Assembly (NCBI GenBank): GCA_016936255.1
Contig: JAFGYE010000091.1
Coordinates: forward strand, 62,001-126,000
DNA: 64,000 nucleotides
Reading direction: 5' to 3'
Source: Marinifilaceae bacterium
GTDB lineage: Bacteria; Bacteroidota; Bacteroidia; Bacteroidales; Marinifilaceae
Both the position numbers and the translations under genes were made by a program. Shown in pieces: positions 51,445-63,827 of the stretch. Positions within the stretch are counted from its first letter, which is position 1. Every line of letters starts with the position of its first letter. The notes under the pieces are model-generated. The model saw only the letters and a program-made list of their open reading frames with translations. It did not search any database and had not been told where the DNA came from.

Positions 51445-53772
51445 ATGAAAACATTATTTACATCAAAAGTAGAGCATGCATTCTATGAATTATCAGGAGT
51501 GCAGGAAATTACAGCCAAAATACCTTATGTAACGGTTGATAATTTTCCAAAATTGGGTTTGATGACTTCACTTCGTTTTTTGGAGTGGGCAGAACAAAAT
51601 CCTCAGGGAGTAATTAGTTTGCCAACCGGTAAAACTCCGGAGTATTTTATCAAGTATACCCAGTTTCTTCTTGAGAATTGGAACAAGCCTAAAGGAATCG
51701 AAATCCGCAGTCAGTATGGACTTGGAAACATGGCTAAACCAGATTTGAGTGGTTTGCAGTTTGTTCAGATTGATGAGTTTTATCCGATTGATCCGCGTCA
51801 GCACAATAGTTTTTACAACTATGTGATGAAATACTATATTGATGGTTTTGGTTTGGAGAAATCCAATTCATTACTAATTAATTCGGAGGAAATACCTTTG
51901 GTAGATAATAAACATTTTCTGGAAGTTTTTCCCGATTACAATATTGATTTGTCGCTTCGTTACCGCGAGGCAACAAGTGTTGTGGAAGAGATGCAGCAGA
52001 AATCAATTTTCATGATTGATAACTGGTGTACTTCTTACGAGCAAAAAATCCGTGATAAAGGTGGCATCGGGTTTTTCCTTGGCGGAATTGGTCCTGATGG
52101 TCATATTGCCTTTAACACCCGTGGATCGGATCATTTTTCGACGACACGATTAACAAAAACAAATTTCGAGACACAGGCGGTTGCGGCAGGCGATTTGGGA
52201 GGTATTGAAGTATCAAGAAACCGTTTGGTAATTACCATTGGCTTGGATACGATTACTCACGATCCAAATGCTGTTTCCATTATTTTTGCAGCAGGTGAAG
52301 CCAAGGCTGATATCGTAAAAGGATCATTGGAAAGTGAGCCTGACGCGATTTATCCGGCTTCGGTGCTTCAGCGTCAGAAAAACAGTCGTTTTTATTTAAC
52401 AACTGGTGCGGCCTGTAAATTGACTGATAGTGTAAACCAATTCTACAAAACAGGAGATTGGACACATGCGAAAAGCGAGAGAGCGGTTATCGATCTGTGT
52501 CAGAAAATCAATAAATATGGTCACCATTTGACTTTGGAAGATTTAAAGGCTGATCCTTACACCAGTCAAATTCCTAATTTGAATGAAGGAACTGTTCAGA
52601 CTGTTATTGATTCCATCAAAAGGAAGTTGGAAAAAGGGATGAAACCTGATACCAACGAGGTAATTTATCATACCGGCCCTCATCATGATGATATCATGCT
52701 GGGAATTATGCCATACACCAACCGACAGATGCGTTCGGCAAGCAATGAGGTTCATTTTTCTGTTCTTACCTCTGGTTTTACTGCAGTAACGAATGGTTTT
52801 GTGATTGGTGTATTAAAGGAGTGTCAGGAATTTATCGGCAAAGGTGAAATTCAAATGCTGGAATATCCTGATTTCTTTGAAGTAGGATTTAGCAAAAAGT
52901 GGGATAAAGATGTGTATCATTTCCTGAATTCTGTTGCAGCCCGAAATCAAAACGGAAAGCGAAGAGGTTTGTGTCATCGTGTAATCCGTGCCATTGTTGA
53001 AACCTGGAAAGTAAAAAGCAAAAAACATCTGAATGAGACAATTGCTTTTATTATTTCAGATTTGGAAAGCAGTTACGATGGAGGTAAAAATTCTCCTGAA
53101 GTTCAGAAAATGAAAGGGATGATTCGTGAGTTTGAAGAAGAGTTGGTTTGGGCTCATTTCGGTACTCCTGTTAAAAATGTTCATCACCTGCGTTTGGGTT
53201 TTTATAAAGGGGATGTGTTTACCGAAACACCTGAAAAAAATAGGGATATGCTTCCTGTATTGGAGGAATTCAGAAAATACAAACCCACAATTATTAGTTT
53301 GGCTATGGATCCGGAAGGAAGTGGACCGGATACCCATTATAAAGTATTGCAAGCCATTGCCGGGGCAGTTAAAGAGTGGAAAGAAGAGGAAGATTTATCG
53401 AAACTTCGAATTATTGGTTACCGAAATGTTTGGTTTAAATACCATCCTTCCGAAGCCGATTCTATTGTTCCGGTTTCTTTGAATGCTCTTGATGTTATGG
53501 AAAACTCATTTACCGAAAGTTATTTAAGTCAGGTGAATGCATCTTTTCCAAGTTACGAGTACGATGGCAAATTTAACGAGCTGACACAAAAGGTTTGGGT
53601 GCAGCAGTTGAAACAAATTCAATTGCTTTTGGGCAAGAATTTCTTTTACGAAAATAATCATCCGTTGGTAAGAGCTACTCATGGTTTGGTTTATATGAAA
53701 GAGATGAATGCTGAAGAGTTTGTAGCTATGGCACAGGATCTTGAGAAAGCAGTTGAAGAAAATCCGTTTTAA
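51445..53772 (+). CDS. nagB: Glucosamine-6-phosphate deaminase fused to PIG-L-type deacetylase
   Basis: 775 residues from the ATG at 51445; an upstream in-frame start at 51394 adds 17 basic residues and is unlikely. NagB domain (about 1-390): SLPTGKTPEYF, the proton-transfer Asp in QIDEFY (about 108) and GPDGHIAFN (about 215). PIG-L-like domain (about 400-760): PHHDDIMLG (about 411) replaces the usual HPDDE, and DPEGSGPDTHYKVL supplies the later His. Together the fusion could remove the acetyl group and then deaminate to fructose-6-phosphate, replacing a separate NagA. No nagA is in the window. The deacetylase step is inferred, since the Glu of HPDDE is changed. Confidence 0.88.
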   Translation: MKTLFTSKVEHAFYELSGVQEITAKIPYVTVDNFPKLGLMTSLRFLEWAEQNPQGVISLPTGKTPEYFIKYTQFLLENWNKPKGIEIRSQYGLGNMAKPDLSGLQFVQIDEFYPIDPRQHNSFYNYVMKYYIDGFGLEKSNSLLINSEEIPLVDNKHFLEVFPDYNIDLSLRYREATSVVEEMQQKSIFMIDNWCTSYEQKIRDKGGIGFFLGGIGPDGHIAFNTRGSDHFSTTRLTKTNFETQAVAAGDLGGIEVSRNRLVITIGLDTITHDPNAVSIIFAAGEAKADIVKGSLESEPDAIYPASVLQRQKNSRFYLTTGAACKLTDSVNQFYKTGDWTHAKSERAVIDLCQKINKYGHHLTLEDLKADPYTSQIPNLNEGTVQTVIDSIKRKLEKGMKPDTNEVIYHTGPHHDDIMLGIMPYTNRQMRSASNEVHFSVLTSGFTAVTNGFVIGVLKECQEFIGKGEIQMLEYPDFFEVGFSKKWDKDVYHFLNSVAARNQNGKRRGLCHRVIRAIVETWKVKSKKHLNETIAFIISDLESSYDGGKNSPEVQKMKGMIREFEEELVWAHFGTPVKNVHHLRLGFYKGDVFTETPEKNRDMLPVLEEFRKYKPTIISLAMDPEGSGPDTHYKVLQAIAGAVKEWKEEEDLSKLRIIGYRNVWFKYHPSEADSIVPVSLNALDVMENSFTESYLSQVNASFPSYEYDGKFNELTQKVWVQQLKQIQLLLGKNFFYENNHPLVRATHGLVYMKEMNAEEFVAMAQDLEKAVEENPF

Positions 53773-55585: not shown

Positions 55586-55615
55586 CCGTTTCACAATGTG
55601 GTGAAACGGTTTTTT
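55586..55615 (+). terminator. Terminator after the ROK kinase
   Basis: CCGTTTCAC/GTGAAACGG stem, 6-base loop, T-run. The T-run overlaps the stop codon of the convergent oxidoreductase gene. Confidence 0.88.
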
Positions 55616-56960
55616 ACTTCGGACTACTTCCTGGTTTGGGTATTTCTTTTGAAACAGCAACAGGCCCAATCACATAAGTTTTTGGCCCCAAATACAAATC
55701 AGAATTCATCATTTCTTCCCACGTAACTTCTTTCCCTGTGTAGGCTGATATTCTTCCCATGATACCGGTAAGGGTTGATTCTGCAATTTGGAAAGCCTCA
55801 TTTACCGGCTTCCCGGTTCGAATGGCGGTAAGCAAATCGATATGTTCCTGATCGTAAGGGTTTGTAGCCAGACGACTTAGAGTAGAGCTATTCCCTTTTC
55901 GGGGATAATCAAAAGTCCATTTAACCGATCCATCAGGATTATAAATCGTATTTTCACAATTTGTACTTCCTTTACTGCCTTGAATACGATCAGAAATTGA
56001 ATTGCTGCAATCATTAATTTGACGGCACATGCTATGGTAGTGAATGTCTTTATCATACACAAAGTCTACGCTAAACATGTCGTACTGATCGCCGGTAATT
56101 CTCTGATGCCGGGCACCAAAACCAAGAGCTTTTTCAGGGTGTTTGCCTACAAACCAATTCATGGTATCTAAATTGTGAACATTTTGTTCTACAATATGAT
56201 CGCCCGAAAGCCAGCACCAGTTCACCCAGTTTCGAATCATGTTTTCCAGTTCAGACCAGACGGCACGGGGATTTCTATGCCAGAGCTTCCCTACATTGTA
56301 ATAACTGTTGGCTGATACAATATCACCAATTTGTCCATTGTTCACTCTGCGGAAAGTTTCCAGGTAATCTGCCTGATGGCGTTTTATTGTTCCGGTAACT
56401 ACTGATAATCCCAGCATTTTTGCCTTTTCGGCCGATACCATTACGGAACGGACACCCACCGGATCGACAGCCACAGGTTTTTCCATAAAGACATGCTTTT
56501 TGGCTTTCACACAGGCTTCGAAATGTTGTGGTCTGAAGTGTGGCGGAGTTGCAAGAATCACAATATCAATATCGCAGTTCATCAGTTTTTCGAACGAATC
56601 GATGCCTGAAAAACACTTGTCGGGAGAAATTTCAATACCCTTTTGGTTTTTTATTTCAAGGCGGCATGCATCAATACGGTCTTGAAAAACATCAGCCAAA
56701 GCAACAATTTCAACATTGGGGCCGGCGTTTAAAAAGTTTAATGCAGCACCTGTTCCCCGGTAACCGCAACCAACAATTCCAGCTTTTAGCAGAGGACCAT
56801 CTGGTGCTGTGTTCAACATGGGTGGAAAAGAATATTCTCTTTTTTGACCCGATTGGCAAGAAGTAAGAAAGGGATTTATCCCAATGGCACCTATAATTCC
56901 TGCCGTGGCAGCATTGCGCAGAAAATTTCTCCGGCTGTTGTTGTAATCATTGCTATTCAT
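55614..56960 (-). CDS. Tat-exported Gfo/Idh/MocA oxidoreductase
   Basis: 448 residues. N-terminal twin-arginine signal SRRNFLR with a hydrophobic core and a following LTSC lipobox, so likely a periplasmic or membrane-anchored protein. Rossmann motif GCGYRGTGAALNF, then FMEKPVAVDPVG, then the alpha/beta substrate domain (WCWLSGDHIVEQNVHNLDTM). The family oxidises or epimerises sugars with NAD(P) and includes the NAD-using GH109 hydrolases; I do not see enough to choose. Convergent with the ROK kinase. Confidence 0.88.
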   Translation of the reverse strand: MNSNDYNNSRRNFLRNAATAGIIGAIGINPFLTSCQSGQKREYSFPPMLNTAPDGPLLKAGIVGCGYRGTGAALNFLNAGPNVEIVALADVFQDRIDACRLEIKNQKGIEISPDKCFSGIDSFEKLMNCDIDIVILATPPHFRPQHFEACVKAKKHVFMEKPVAVDPVGVRSVMVSAEKAKMLGLSVVTGTIKRHQADYLETFRRVNNGQIGDIVSANSYYNVGKLWHRNPRAVWSELENMIRNWVNWCWLSGDHIVEQNVHNLDTMNWFVGKHPEKALGFGARHQRITGDQYDMFSVDFVYDKDIHYHSMCRQINDCSNSISDRIQGSKGSTNCENTIYNPDGSVKWTFDYPRKGNSSTLSRLATNPYDQEHIDLLTAIRTGKPVNEAFQIAESTLTGIMGRISAYTGKEVTWEEMMNSDLYLGPKTYVIGPVAVSKEIPKPGSSPK

Positions 56961-56984: not shown

Positions 56985-58385
56985 TTATTTGATTCTGTTA
57001 ATCTGATTTTCCTGCGGCCATTCGCAAACTACACGGAAACCAACATCATTGCAATCGGAATACCACCAAATGCTTTTCGGAATCTGAGGATCGCTTATCA
57101 TCCATTTATCATGTTTGGTATAATCTTTAAAGTTCCAAAGTAGTTCATGAACTGAGCTTTTAAATGATCCTCCTTTGACTATATGTTCAGTTTTTGTGCT
57201 TGCTTTTATCGTATCAAGGCAAAATTCACGAACATTGCCAAGCAGATTTAAAATTCCATATTTGTTTGTTAAAACCTCTTCCGGCAAGCCTGTTTTTCCA
57301 TTGCTGTTTTCTTTCCAAATCACGTAATTATTGATTTCACCGCTCGGTTTTTGAAATAGATTCAGAACAATATTTTTTGCAGTGTAATCTGAAGTTTTAC
57401 CCCCAAAAAAGAATTCTTCATTTTCATTGGTTCCGGTAGCATATTCCCATTCTGTGGCAGTTGGCAGACGATATGTTTTTCCTGTTTTTCGAGAGAGCCA
57501 TCTGCAATAGGTATTTGCAGCATGCCAAGTCATGGTAACTGCGGGTCGGTTTCCCATTCCCCATCCCTGCGAAGGATCCCCGAAGGGTGGGGTTGCTCCT
57601 GAAATTGCATCAATATCAGTATTGGTTTCGGTACGACCTTCTGATTCTGTCTCGCTAAGAAAGCTTTGGTATTCATTCCAAGATACTTCTGTTTTAGCCA
57701 TGAAAAAAGACTTGCTCATTTTGGCCGCGGCAGGTATTGCTATCATTTCGAAAGCAATTGATGTTCCCGGTATTTTTTCGGTGAAATTGATAAAATACTT
57801 CACCTCTGCAGCTTGGTGGTATTTTATTTCCGTTTGTGAAGATTTTAAAAAGTTGAGATTTTCATGAAGTAATTCCTTTTCACCATGTCCAACACCTATA
57901 TGACAATTGATACAATCCAAATCAGCTTTATTGTTTTTATAATATAGATGTGCTTCATCTCCTTTCTTTGATAAGTTTAGGGGAAATAAATTTTGGTGAC
58001 ATTTGATGCAGGATTCATTAAAGGTATGATGCTTTGCATTTTCCAGAGTAGATTTTTCATCCCAGTTGATTTGATCGGTATCCTTACACCAATAGGAGTA
58101 AAGATCTCTTGAGCCTGCTGTTATTTTTTCGGGCCAATATGCGATATGTTCTTTTGGGGGCAGATGGCAATCAACACAGTGAATAACAACTCCACTTTTA
58201 TTGTTGTGGTGAGATGATATTTTCCACTCATTATCTGAATGAGAATGCACATGACAAGACATGCAATATTCATCAGAGGAGCTCAGGTTATCAATTCCTT
58301 TACTACCTGTGACAAGTGCCAGAGCAAAAAGGAAAGACCAAAGGATGAATAGAAGGAATTTATTTTTGTACAGGAATTTATTCAT
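56985..58385 (-). CDS. Tetraheme NapC/NirT-type cytochrome fused to a SUMF1/FGE-like domain
   Basis: 466 residues. A membrane helix (about 10-28) is followed by four CxxCH heme motifs: CMSCH (41), CVDCH (70), CIKCH (126) and CINCH (158). From about 205 a formylglycine-generating-enzyme-like domain begins ([74 protein letters not shown]). The combination suggests a quinol-linked electron carrier delivering electrons to a periplasmic modifying or carbohydrate-binding SUMF1 unit. The start codon overlaps the stop of the hybrid regulator (TGATG), so the two are translated together. Confidence 0.85.
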
Positions 58386-61300
58386 CAGGAAATTATATCT
58401 GGGCTTAAATTATTTGAACAGCTCATCGTTTTATGTTCCAGTTTGTATTGTTTTGGTGTTTTTTTATACTCTTTCTTGAAGCATTTGGAAAAATATTTAG
58501 GATCATTAAAACCTACCTTAAAAGCAATTTCCTGAATGGTTAAATTGTAATTAATTAGTATAACAACTGCTTTTCGCAATCTGAATGTGCGAACAAAATC
58601 GACTAGTGTTTTGCCTGTTAAAGAAAGGAATCTTCTGTAAATATTGGAATAACTCATGTTTAAACTCGTGGCAAGTTCTTCCAATCTAAACTCTGGATCT
58701 TCAAAATTATTTTCTATTTCCAGAAGAACTGATTCAATGAACTTTTCATCTGGTGATTCAATTTCCAGTTCTTTGCAATCTGTTAGTATTTCAGCGCGAT
58801 ATTGTTCGATTACTCTTTTTTGAGCATCTAAAATGTTGTTTACTTTTAATAAGAGCTCTTTTACATTAAATGGTTTGTTAATATATTCAATCGCACCAAA
58901 TTTCAGCCCTTCCAGTTTCGAATTTGTTGTGTTTTTTGTTGTTAGTAATATAATTGGAATGTGACGGGTGCACTTTTTCTCTTTTAAATTTTTGCAGAGT
59001 GTGATTCCATCCATAATTGGCATCATCACATCACTTAAAATGATATCTGCCTTGTAATCAGAGAGGCAATTCAGGGCCTCCTGTCCATTCTGAGCAACTC
59101 TTACATTGTAAAAAATCTTAAAGCTATCCTGCAAAAACAAAAGCATTTCATAATTGTCTTCAACAATCAAGATGTTTTTTTTGTTTTCATCAGGAATCAA
59201 TTCACTTAGTTCTTCATTTAGATTTAATGGCAAAATTGGGGTTTCATTTATTTCTTCCTTGTTGGATTCATGATACGCAAATTCGTCCTGTCTGAAATGT
59301 TGGTTGCCAAACGGGATTGATATGGTAAATGTTGTTCCTTTATGGAGTTCGGATTCAACAGTGATCTCCCCTTTGTGAAGTAGAATTAATTCTTGACTTA
59401 AAGCCAGACCAATTCCAGTTCCGCCAATTGCTTTTCCATCTTTCGACTGATAAAACAGATTAAAGATATTTGTGAGTTCATTGTTTGGAATGCCTATGCC
59501 GGTATCGGTTATTTTAATTTCTACTTTTTTTTCTTCAATATTCTTGTTTAGGTGTATTACTATTTTTCCTTCCCGGGGAGTAAATTTAAAGGCATTGGCC
59601 AAAAGATTGTAAATTACATGCTCCAGTTTTTGCTGATCGTACCAAAGTAGAATTTCTTCTTTTTCAATTCCTTCCACACTAAAATCAATTTGCTTGAATC
59701 GGGCTTGCTCCGTAAAAGAAAGCGCCGTTTTATTAATGTCTTTAATAATGTTATTCTCACTAACGCTGATTTTTAATTTCCCCAATTCCTTATTTCGTAT
59801 AGTCATTAATTCCATTGCAATCCGCGATAATCGGTTGGCATTGTTCTTAATAACCTGCAGGCGTTGTCGAAGCAAGAGATTCCCCTCTGCACGTTCAATC
59901 ATATTTTCAATAGGTGATAAAATTAAGGTTAGCGGCGTTTGAATTTCATGTGACATTTTTGCGAAGAAATTCATCTTCAATTCATACAATTCTTTGTTCT
60001 TTTCATTTTGAAGTTCTTTTAAATACAGTTTTTTCTTTAATCGTGCCCACATAATGGAGTAACGAATTATAAAGAAACTGATGATTGCCAACAGAATTGT
60101 ATAAATCAAATAAGCCCACCATCTTAGCCAGAATGGGGGAAGAATTTTAAGCTCTATTGTTTGAGTCTGAATATCCCAAATGTTTCTTTTTGTTCCTGCT
60201 TTTACTTCAAACGTATAATTGCCGTAAGGGATATTTGTATAGGTAGCCACACGCATGTTTTCGGTTGTGATCCAATTGTTATCGAATCCTTTTAGTCGGT
60301 AGGCGTAAAAATAGTTTGGATCCAGATGGTCGTTTATAACAGAGAATTGAAATGAAAAAGAGGTTTGTTTATGATTTAGCTTTAACGTTTTGATTTGCCC
60401 GATGCCTGCTTTCAGTTGTTCCGGAATTAATTCTTCTGCATCCCGGTTCACAATTTTAAGCTGATTAACGCGAAGGTGTAACTCCATATTTGTTTTTTTT
60501 ATTCGGGAAGGATCAAAATGGTTTAATCCTCCCACACCACCAAAATAGAGGACTCCGTCTTTATCTTTGGCAGCACTTCCTGAAAGAAAACGATCTTTTA
60601 ATGTTCCGTTTTTCCACGAATAAAAATAACTGCGGCCTGAAGCAAGATCCAGATGAGAAATGCCGTTGATTCGTGAAACCCATAAATTAGAACTGTCTGC
60701 AGCAATCACAGCGATAACTCCGTGAATTTCTTCATTGTTAAACCCGTTAATTGGTGCTGTCTTTTTCTCCTTCGTGCTGAATTTGAGTAGTTTGGAATAA
60801 GAATTTACAAAATAGAGATTTCCGTGATCATCTGAAGCTCCATGGCTTATACTATTCTCAGTCTGATTTTTAGTGTTTACTAATTGAAATGGGATGAAAA
60901 AGGAATCTTCCAGTGTTTTTTCTTCTTTAAATAAGAACAATCCACCGTCAACCATACCCATCCAGATCTGATTGTTTTCATCCTTTAAAAAGACTTCTGC
61001 GATACTCCCTTTAAGGCCGTTTTTATTGTGCGGATAAAAGGCCATTTGTTTGCCTGATAGCGAGTAAACTGAGATTCCGACATTGCTGCCAACCCAAATT
61101 CTATTTTTATTGTCGATGAATAAAGACCTGATATCAGTAGCCATCTGTCCGGCCTTATTTACTGCTTTTATCGATGAGAATTTATTTGTTTTTGTATCGT
61201 AATGGAGTAATCCGTTAAGGTAAGTTCCAATCCATTTGTTTTGGTTTTGATCCTCAACCATGGTTTGAATGTAATTCCCTGTCAGTCCATTGGCTGTGTT

Positions 61301-62491
61301 GGTTTTTGCAATGAATTGCTGAATTGCTTTTCCCGTTTTATCAATTATGGTGATTCCTTCCCCATCGGTACCAATCCAAAGATTTTCATTTTCGCATTTT
61401 AATATGGATAGAACTCTTGTTGGAGAACCGGAAAGGCTGCCACTATAGTATCCAAAAGTTGATGATTCACTGGGTAATATATTGATATTGCCATAATTTG
61501 TGAATATCCAGATATCATTATTGTTAGTTTCTCCTAATCCTATAACTGTATTGCTTTGTAATGAAAATTTATTGGTTTTAGAATGAGTATAGCTTTTTAT
61601 CTCTTTTGTTTTCGGATTCACCTGATAAAGTCCGCCACCATCCGTACCTGCCCAAATGGTTCCTTTGCTGTCGCAAAAGATGCGAATGATCATATTGGTT
61701 GGGACGAAATGAGAAGTTTTGGCTTTGTTGTGAAAATGTTCGTAGGTTTCTGTTTCTAAATCATAGACAAATAATCCGTACAGTTCTGTACCAATCCAAA
61801 GATTTCCATTTTTATCGCTGGTTAATATGATTGTATTAAAGGGATTACTGAAAGGTCCTTTTAGTTCGGTAAGTTTCAGGGTCGATGTATTTCCCTTAAA
61901 GATTCGCCCTTTGTTGGTGCTGAACCATATAATATTCTCTTTTCCTTCAACAATGGATGTAATGGTTTCGCCGGATGAGTATATGTCAAATCTGATGATT
62001 GTTGAATCGGCAAGAGACTGACCGATCACCGTTCCGAAATTGCTGCCTAACCAAATTCTCGACGAACTAATATTTACAGATTCCAGTGTTTGATGCTCCG
62101 CTAACATGCTGATGTTGGAATATTGCGGTGCATATTTTTCAGATGGCATCAGTTTGGATATTGAGCCTTTTTTTGATACGCACCAAATGTTTCCATGTGA
62201 ATCTTTTAATAAGCTAAGAATTGAGGCTGCAGATGCTTCCTTACCAAATATTTCGCTGTGGGAATATTGACGGTAATCATAACCATCAAAGCGCAGAATA
62301 CCAGAATGAGAGTTGAGCCACAGATAGCCAAGTGAATCTTCAACTACGCTTGTGGCAATGGTTTGCTGTCTACCAACTTCTGCTCTTACATGGATAAAGT
62401 TGGTAGATTCATCTGCGTATGAAAAGAGATAAGTAGTACAAGCCAATAATAGTAGAATCAGTTTAGCTACAGGTGAATTTTTTCTCAACAT
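58385..62491 (-). CDS. Hybrid two-component system regulator (HTCS)
   Basis: 1368 residues from the ATG at 62491, chosen because it starts a good signal sequence ([26 protein letters not shown]); an upstream in-frame start adds 24 residues. Order: about 14 beta-propeller (Reg_prop) repeats, Y_Y_Y domain, membrane helix (about 800), HisKA with [10 protein letters not shown] (about 845), ATPase ([27 protein letters not shown]), receiver with the phosphorylated Asp in ILSDVMMP (about 1152) and an AraC-type HTH at the C-terminus. HTCS proteins sense a sugar in the periplasm and activate a polysaccharide-utilisation locus. Likely controls the genes just downstream or the lipoprotein and partial gene at 62.9-64 kb. 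Confidence 0.93.
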
Positions 62492-62900
62492 GATGAATCT
62501 ATTTCTAAGTTCAGGTACAAACAAAAATAGACATCTGTTATAAGCCTTCCAAGTAGAATTCAAATAAAATTGGCTGATGGGTTATGTGTAAGTATCTTAA
62601 AATTAATACCATGGGAAAATATCTACCACTTAGCCTAAAATGTCCACCTCTCGATACTAAATAATCCCCAATATTATATTCTCGAATTTAATAGTTCTTA
62701 CTACAAGTAAGAGATAATGCGTGTTAAACCATATAACTCATTCTAAATAATTTCGGTATGAGACGATATTTACACAATGCAGCAAATGAGTTTTAAAAAA
62801 AAACTATCACGTTAGGATTACTAACATTGTTTTCAGTGTGAGTAGTGGAACTATTTATTAACCCAATATCTAAATTTTTTTTTGTATAAAATCTAACCTT
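62492..62900. other. Intergenic region between divergent HTCS and lipoprotein genes
   Basis: About 400 bases that must carry two divergent promoters. I see AT-rich tracts and an 8-bp inverted pair AACTCATT/AATGAGTT near 62727 and 62786, but no consensus promoter I would defend. Confidence 0.4.
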
Positions 62901-63827
62901 ATGAAGAATCAAACAATGAAAAAAAGTGACTATTTAAAAATTCCAAAAATGGGTTTTAAACGGAGCTCATTTTTGTTATTCGCAATCGTTGCCATGACTT
63001 TTGCCACCAGTTGCGACAAAGACGAATCAGTTAATTTACCAGAGACAACCACAGGTGAAGTAACTGATATCACAGGTCAGAATGCTGTTGTGAGCGGCAG
63101 TGTAACATCCAACGGAGGATCAAAAATTCTTGCTATGGGAATTTGCTGGACGGCTAAAGATGTTGAGCCAACTGTAGAAGATAATTTTGCAGCAGTAGGT
63201 GAATTTACTCCGGATGGTATTTTGCAGGAGGATTGGAATTATTCAGCGACCCTAAATGGATTAGCTGTTAAAACGGCTTATAAAGCCAGAGCTTATGCCG
63301 CGAATGAAGCAGGTACTTCTTACGGAGAAACTATTTCTTTTACTTCTAAAGCAGGGAAAACTTTCCATGTATTAACAGCGGATATGATTGATACCTATAC
63401 GCAAGAAGTTGAGGAAGGACCTAAGGAATCTCTTATTGATGACGATTTTGATACCTATTGGCATTCAGCCTGGTCTGATGAACCTGGTGCAGAAGTTATG
63501 CCATTGCCTCATCATATCCAAATTGCATTTGCCGAAGATAAAAACATTGGAGGATTCCAATTCTGGACCAGAAGTACATCCAACAGATCAAACGATCCTG
63601 TCAAATTCGATGTGCAAACAAGTACAAATGGAACTGATTATACAACAGTATGGACTTCAGAAACTATAGCAACTCAGCCACGTCCGGCTGATAACACTAT
63701 TTCACTTGATAAGAATTATTCTTCTAAATATTTTAGGATTAGAGTTCTTGACACACGTACAACAGGATTAACCCACACTACAATGAGTGAGATAAAAGTG
63801 TTCGATGATGGTATGCTGCCTTATTAA
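62901..63827 (+). CDS. Surface lipoprotein with fibronectin-like and F5/8-type (discoidin) domains
   Basis: 308 residues. The signal peptide ends in FATSC (Cys about 38). Then a fibronectin-type repeat (EVTDITGQNAVVSGSVTSNGG, MGICWT, KARAYAANEAGTSYGE) and an F5/8-type C/CBM32-like sandwich (LIDDDFDTYWHSAW, HHIQIAF, GGFQFWTRS, YFRIRVLD). A glycan-binding outer-membrane lipoprotein, probably part of the locus controlled by the neighbouring HTCS. An internal start at residue 6 or 17 would still retain the lipobox. Confidence 0.82.
   Translation: MKNQTMKKSDYLKIPKMGFKRSSFLLFAIVAMTFATSCDKDESVNLPETTTGEVTDITGQNAVVSGSVTSNGGSKILAMGICWTAKDVEPTVEDNFAAVGEFTPDGILQEDWNYSATLNGLAVKTAYKARAYAANEAGTSYGETISFTSKAGKTFHVLTADMIDTYTQEVEEGPKESLIDDDFDTYWHSAWSDEPGAEVMPLPHHIQIAFAEDKNIGGFQFWTRSTSNRSNDPVKFDVQTSTNGTDYTTVWTSETIATQPRPADNTISLDKNYSSKYFRIRVLDTRTTGLTHTTMSEIKVFDDGMLPY

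Follow-up and report, generated by a model that had tools for sequence, protein, structure and literature searches.

Tetraheme quinol dehydrogenases of the NrfH/NapC/CymA type (PF03264; structure 2j7a) are membrane-anchored cytochromes with four CxxCH motifs, and proteins of the NapC and NrfH kind normally oxidise quinol. Oxidoreductases of the Gfo/Idh/MocA type move hydride via NAD(P); exported enzymes of this type are common in glycan-degrading Bacteroidota and, to our knowledge, the electron acceptor of many of them is not known. The periplasmic 3-keto-glycoside systems, as represented by LacABC with DUF1080 in PMC9007349 and by the BT_2158 family, likewise use exported oxidoreductases acting on glycosides. 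A further group, the carriers flavinylated by ApbE (e.g. those with FMN_bind, DUF2271 or DUF3570), is described in PMC8238504, whose main text contains neither the word sulfatase nor the word sumf1; the ApbE motif is given as D-x-x-[S/T]-G-A-[S/T] in PMC12052999. The protein described here unites component parts of known kinds. Neither their combination nor the possible flavinylation was met in the literature searched, and no description of the fusion or of a corresponding relay was found in the one open-licence library searched.

The relevant features of the window, i.e. the whole stretch of 64,000 nucleotides that was analysed, are the following:

56985-58385, reverse strand: fusion gene encoding 466 aa, with an N-terminal membrane helix, a NapC/NirT-type tetraheme cytochrome and a SUMF1/FGE-fold domain (open reading frame, Pfam, AF2 model)
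57882-58358, reverse strand: tetraheme domain, aa 10-168 (Pfam, CxxCH motifs, invariant residues)
57018-57797, reverse strand: SUMF1/FGE-fold domain, aa 197-456 (VIA-align structural matches)
57591-57611, reverse strand: DAISGAT, aa 259-265, an exact instance of the ApbE flavinylation motif D-x-x-[ST]-G-A-[ST] (motif match)
57063-57092, reverse strand: second family signature, ten residues, aa 432-441 (invariant columns)
55614-56960, reverse strand: partner gene, a Gfo/Idh/MocA oxidoreductase of 448 aa with a twin-arginine signal read by eye, starting 24 bp after the fusion stop (Pfam)
58385-62563, reverse strand: hybrid two-component regulator with Reg_prop, Y_Y_Y, HisKA, HATPase, receiver and AraC-type HTH domains (open reading frame, Pfam)
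62901-63827, forward strand: F5/8 type C protein, first gene of a polysaccharide-utilisation cluster (Pfam)

A single open reading frame with an ATG start fills 56985-58385 of the reverse strand exactly (466 codons). It has CxxCH motifs starting at aa 41, 70, 126 and 158 and Pfam matches over the cut-offs to both Cytochrom_NNT (PF03264, aa 10-168, 89.6 bits against 24.1) and FGE-sulfatase (PF03781, aa 218-412, 91 bits against 23.3), so that the tetraheme cytochrome and the SUMF1 domain do lie in one frame, as the preliminary description had it. Its reading of a start codon overlapping the stop of the regulator is borne out by the DNA, where the fusion ATG and the regulator TGA have one base in common (reverse strand cctgATGaat), and the SUMF1 domain it had called complete-looking is complete in fold, the structural match running over aa 197-456. 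An AF2 model of the fusion on 75 alignment rows, which supersedes an earlier one on 19 rows (pLDDT 60.9), has a mean pLDDT of 80.3 and a pTM of 0.75, with much of the SUMF1 domain above 90 and a long helix at aa 9-35.

The PF03264 score together with the four CxxCH motifs places the N-terminal part in the NapC/NirT family. It has in common with the NrfH/NapC/CymA-type dehydrogenases the N-terminal membrane helix, the four CxxCH motifs and a Lys-x6-Asp pair (K87, D94), which is invariant in the 23 rows aligned for this domain and aligns with that of NrfH (2j7a), where it lies at the quinol site. Four additional histidines (His47, His59, His146 and His167) are also invariant in these 23 rows and could be the distal ligands of four bis-histidine hemes. 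There are several differences from the described dehydrogenases: whereas NrfH reads CxxCH-x-Met after the first heme motif in the alignment, the methionine presumably being a heme ligand, the fusion reads CxxCH-x-His (His47); its score of 79 bits against the NrfH equivalog TIGR03153 is below the curated cut-off of 134.2; and it is fused to a SUMF1 domain and has as partner a Gfo/Idh/MocA enzyme rather than a nitrite or nitrate reductase.

Searches covering overlapping sets of genomes (59 from relatives, 395 from the phylum, 247 from the order and 395 from the class) yielded 75 family members besides the source copy, 43 of them fusions and 32 without a heme motif (hereafter heme-less). In family-profile searches the lowest-scoring member reached 287 bits and the best control SUMF1 protein 199.1, the controls being 20 SUMF1 loci that we chose from the weaker matches in the order and class searches. 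The count of 75 excludes the source copy itself (L072), a fragment (G001:C557, L085), the copies from named organisms (L002-L004) and G006:C144, which has stop codons inside the match; it includes among the fusions L106, which is cut by a contig end and retains one CxxCH. The 75-row set used for structure and alignment consists of the source copy, 42 fusions and the 32 heme-less members, and in it FGE-sulfatase is matched by Pfam in all 75 rows and Cytochrom_NNT in 43. The named relatives found belong to Labilibaculum, their best segments being 84-87% identical, and this genus is the most likely source of the window. When the SUMF1 part was placed in a maximum-likelihood tree, all 43 fusions fell on one side of a branch with support 100/100; this, together with the 43-87% identity of the 18 fusions aligned with the fusion protein, argues that the fusion is not a product of chance. 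The tree rows show fusions in 16 families of the source organism's order and in one family elsewhere in the phylum. Since the root is not fixed (midpoint rooting was used for drawing only), a single gain and a single loss of the heme domain both fit. The fetched fusion loci span 3.4-19 kb and the heme-less ones 10-19 kb, each set with a median of 16 kb, so that a neighbour missing from a short locus is weak evidence. The excluded G006:C144:19634-21031 (L006, L004) is a near copy of the fusion protein with a TGA and a TAG inside the match, and its genome also holds a second, intact fusion (L055).

The SUMF1 domain of the AF2 model was compared with solved structures using VIA-align, which matched it to the variable protein of T. 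denticola (2y3c; Z 22.5, rmsd 2.8, 204 residues), PvdO (5hha; Z 22.1, rmsd 3.0, 212 residues) and human FGE (2aii; Z 17.9, rmsd 3.0, 193 residues). Thus, the likeness to FGE (SUMF1; 2aii, 6s07) is one of fold, with Z of 17-18 over about 195 residues. It differs in the active site: the segment GGSY-C-HRSY-C of human FGE, within which lie what we take to be the copper cysteines Cys336 and Cys341, is replaced in the fusion by a twelve-residue segment from which both cysteines are absent, and the cysteine pair was found in the corresponding segment of none of the 75 relatives. Instead, the family has two loops of its own, D-x-x-[ST]-x-[AP]-[ST] and DPQ-x-P-x-S-x-WW, the latter with D432, P433, Q434, P436, S438, W440 and W441 invariant in the 75 alignment rows. 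Judged by these residues, a formylglycine-generating activity of the domain is not supported. The preliminary description had proposed a redox-dependent modification or sulfatase-related step in the periplasm, and had named in advance the loss of the metal-binding cysteines as its refutation; with both missing, neither formylglycine formation nor a sulfatase step is supported. The joining of a quinol-type tetraheme domain to SUMF1 stands, and a periplasmic redox role is likely. Two other identities suggested by the fold were rejected: that of PvdO, against whose model the fusion scores 46.6 bits (cut-off 500), and an EgtB/OvoA-like iron chemistry, the DinB-type domain not being among the Pfam matches of the fusion. 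The family serves as a warning that a set of SUMF1-fold proteins in Bacteroidota is labelled FGE-sulfatase by general models and lacks the FGE active site.

The constant companion of the family, absent from the preliminary description, is the Gfo/Idh/MocA gene. In 40 of the 43 fusion loci and 26 of the 32 heme-less ones, a homologue of it comes immediately after the SUMF1 gene, in the same orientation and at less than 350 bp. The nine members without an adjacent partner are the fusions L087, L091 and L092 and the heme-less L071, L074, L113, L117, L120 and L124, and the partner profile at E<=1e-10 had no match in the 20 control loci. This adjacency shows that the SUMF1 gene and its partner function together, not that electrons pass between them. 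Another SUMF1 protein beside a redox enzyme is NirV of denitrifiers. Among the loci lacking the partner, L117, L120 and L124 represent one lineage that has the signature loop but, within the stretch fetched, no partner and no apbE, while in L071 (9198-17150) and L074 (8059-16364) the heme-less member is followed by YceI-type and PSCyt1/PSD1/DUF1501-type genes in place of Gfo/Idh/MocA, with an apbE in L071 only.

Pfam places the partner over the cut-offs for PF01408, PF02894 and PF22725, and its Rossmann and C-terminal domains and EKP lysine identify it as a Gfo/Idh/MocA protein. The glycine-rich loop, presumably nucleotide-binding, and the EKP lysine K161 and H262 of VHN(L/I)D, to which we ascribe catalytic roles, are invariant in 19 rows; as these are kept, the partner is predicted to be active. 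Its twin-arginine sequence, SRRNFLRNA, was recognised by eye. Across 19 relatives the first arginine does not vary and the second hardly does, but the TAT model matches only 4 of 19 partners, the source partner not among them. Among solved structures, inositol dehydrogenases match its sequence best, followed by DgpA, an aldose-aldose oxidoreductase and a glucuronide 3-dehydrogenase. The system differs from the 3-keto-glycoside systems in that a Gfo/Idh/MocA enzyme is paired with a SUMF1 protein and in that the source partner reaches none of the NCBIfam cut-offs listed for it. The loci often contain, as a third gene, one for a xylose-isomerase-like TIM barrel, and some of them also contain DUF1080 genes; GMC genes are found in 4 of the 32 heme-less loci and genes for gluconate-2-dehydrogenase subunit 3 in 5 of the 32.

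On balance, we lean towards the proposal that the fusion, anchored in the membrane, relays electrons between the menaquinone pool and the exported Gfo/Idh/MocA sugar oxidoreductase, for which we infer the contact, the cofactor, the direction and the substrate. The tetraheme part would trade electrons with quinone, while the SUMF1 fold would dock the oxidoreductase and make no formylglycine. A flavin, perhaps held at the DAISGAT loop, would provide the step from two-electron to one-electron chemistry required to link the hemes to a hydride carried by enzyme-bound NAD(H). Electrons would thus run from sugar to NAD, possibly via the flavin to the hemes, and on to menaquinone, a direction chosen because electron flow from NADH to menaquinone is downhill, and glycan oxidation would thereby feed anaerobic respiration. 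This direction is opposite to the usual quinol oxidation of NapC-type proteins, which counts against the relay.

The possible involvement of a flavin is suggested by the DAISGAT loop and by the gene neighbourhoods of the heme-less relatives. In the family loop D-x-x-[ST]-x-[AP]-[ST], the aspartate at position 1 is present in 43/43 fusions and 31/32 heme-less members, and position 7 is Ser or Thr in all 75. By alignment columns, the exact ApbE motif occurs in 15 of the 43 fusions other than the source copy and in 0/32 heme-less members; 25/43 fusions read GPT and 3/43 have I or V at position 4, while 29/32 heme-less members have Arg at position 5. The exact motif is seen in one of 771 other proteins of the family loci, and shuffling of the fusion protein produced it in 25 of 20000 trials, and on these figures it is not random. 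There is, nevertheless, a possible structural reason for a loop kept across the whole family, and the loop itself is modelled poorly (block pLDDT 48-69 at aa 251-280). The loose form of the family motif occurs in two of the 20 control loci. One, L151, carries the DPQ-WW signature as well and is perhaps a short member of the family that lacks a partner; the other, L140, reads DVGANAS, with position 4 not Ser/Thr.

The gene for the FMN transferase ApbE is found in 16 of the 32 heme-less loci and, even at E<=0.001, in none of the 43 fusion loci (Fisher test, p 7e-8, which treats related loci as independent though the fusions are one branch). All of the 11 linked products checked out of 16 belong to PF02424 and score far over the ApbE cut-off. 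On the tree, 10 changes are required to account for apbE among the heme-less members, and in six loci (L078, L112, L114, L116, L118 and L119) the order SUMF1, Gfo/Idh/MocA, apbE, TIM barrel is found on one strand. G403 speaks against a clean split between apbE and hemes: beyond the fetched stretch, at about 13 kb from its fusion, it has an apbE. In support of the relay, an apbE is present somewhere in 18 of the 19 fusion genomes searched. PF04205, which we take to be FMN_bind, is not among the Pfam matches of the fusion at E<=0.001. With the ApbE-flavinylated carriers of PMC8238504 the system has in common the exact motif and the linkage of apbE to the heme-less relatives, and the mutual exclusion of heme domain and apbE resembles the redundancy of flavinylation and cytochromes described there. 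It differs in its SUMF1 fold and in that a flavin on the fusion is a proposal. As a tentative and still doubtful extension of the relay, the SUMF1 fold might have turned into a covalent flavoprotein: ApbE would put FMN on Thr265 of DAISGAT, and the flavin would link the NAD-type periplasmic sugar oxidoreductase to the quinone pool, via the fused hemes in the source organism's order and by another route in the heme-less relatives that keep their own apbE. Against the flavin part, the heme-less relatives never have the exact motif, yet hold the linked apbE; the only exact motif in their loci is in an unrelated protein of L076, leaving their apbE without an obvious canonical target.

An alternative prompted by the SUMF1 fold is that the domain makes formylglycine or another covalent modification, powered by quinol electrons. 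The source genome accords with it to the extent that it has one Cys-type sulfatase (STVCAPSR), encoded in the adjoining utilisation cluster (G000 contig C43:136518-137513, L157), and lacks a radical-SAM maturase over the cut-off; none of its SUMF1 genes has the FGE cysteine pair, and the three besides the fusion are, on our reading, only GldK-, GldJ- and OvoA-like. However, apart from the absence of the FGE cysteines from the fusion, blastp with the source sulfatase found relatives in 0/43 fusion loci and 2/32 heme-less loci. Moreover, 5 of 35 fusion genomes have no sulfatase at E<=1e-45, a strict limit at which weaker sulfatases may be missed, and 17 of the 35 encode a radical-SAM sulfatase maturase over the cut-off. 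Such a modification is therefore highly improbable, and sulfatase maturation as a general role was rejected on the absent cysteines, the rarity of relatives of the source sulfatase in the loci and the distribution of sulfatases and maturases. For the L157 sulfatase itself, no known maturase was found in the source genome. Among the fusion genomes, G568 has no sulfatase match at E<=1e-45, yet has a radical-SAM maturase, and G656, G600, G041 and G027 have 18 to 48 sulfatase matches (48 being near the number scored) and no radical-SAM maturase over the cut-off.

Two further alternatives keep the pairing with the oxidoreductase. If the direction followed the usual quinol oxidation by NapC and NrfH, menaquinol would drive electrons via the hemes and SUMF1 to the Gfo/Idh/MocA enzyme, either reducing a ketosugar or resetting the bound NAD of a redox-neutral 3-keto-glycoside enzyme. 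It would be in keeping with this that each of the 19 partners tested gives a match (E<=0.001) to the BT_2158 model for glycoside 3-dehydrogenase, that the source's own cluster has a GH109 gene, also of the Gfo/Idh/MocA type, and that genes for 3-keto-disaccharide hydrolases are found in at least two family loci (L099, L113). We consider it unlikely, as electrons would have to go uphill from menaquinol to NAD unless the bound cofactor has a shifted potential, and the source partner scores 26.6 bits against the BT_2158 model NF058561, whose curated cut-off is 750. Alternatively, the SUMF1 domain may be a mere binding scaffold or carbohydrate-binding tether with no cofactor, electrons passing directly from oxidoreductase to hemes or not at all. 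Among the top structural matches are proteins with no known enzymatic role, such as the T. denticola variable protein and PorK, and neither Cys nor His occurs in the columns of the SUMF1 part listed as invariant; on the other hand, direct transfer from NADH to heme is chemically unfavourable, and the involvement of a flavin is suggested by the linkage of apbE to the heme-less relatives, and this makes a cofactor-free scaffold a rather unlikely option, if one to be kept in mind. The relay from sugar to menaquinone is accordingly the reading we retain.

The pairing with a carbohydrate-sensing regulator, which the preliminary description had found unexpected, is real, the regulator gene (starting at TTG 62563 or ATG 62491) lying directly upstream of the fusion, but it is lineage-specific: it is seen in 8/43 fusion loci, which all fall within a single tree branch of nine rows, and in 0/32 heme-less loci. 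The ninth row is L058, whose contig starts partway through an upstream frame; this frame stops 9 bp short of the fusion. The utilisation cluster continues past the 64,000-nt window with SusC, SusD, GH2, sulfatase, GH20 and GH109 genes, and suggests glycans that are sulfated and rich in hexosamines, for example mucin-type chains. Beyond the partner gene, on the other strand, are two ROK-family genes and phosphoglucomutase-type, sugar-transporter-type, kinase-type and CBM9 genes. A 775-aa protein encoded at 51445-53772 on the forward strand is kept in sister loci and matches no Pfam family at E<=0.001; on inspection by eye, the N-terminal portion resembles glucosamine-6-phosphate deaminase.

A quinone-linked cytochrome fused beside a Gfo/Idh/MocA enzyme is a direct candidate answer to the question of the electron acceptor of such exported enzymes. 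If the relay is real, glycan breakdown would feed anaerobic respiration outside the cytoplasm; and if the SUMF1 domain does carry a covalent flavin, it would add a new class to the substrates of ApbE and open a new route for glycan oxidation into respiration.
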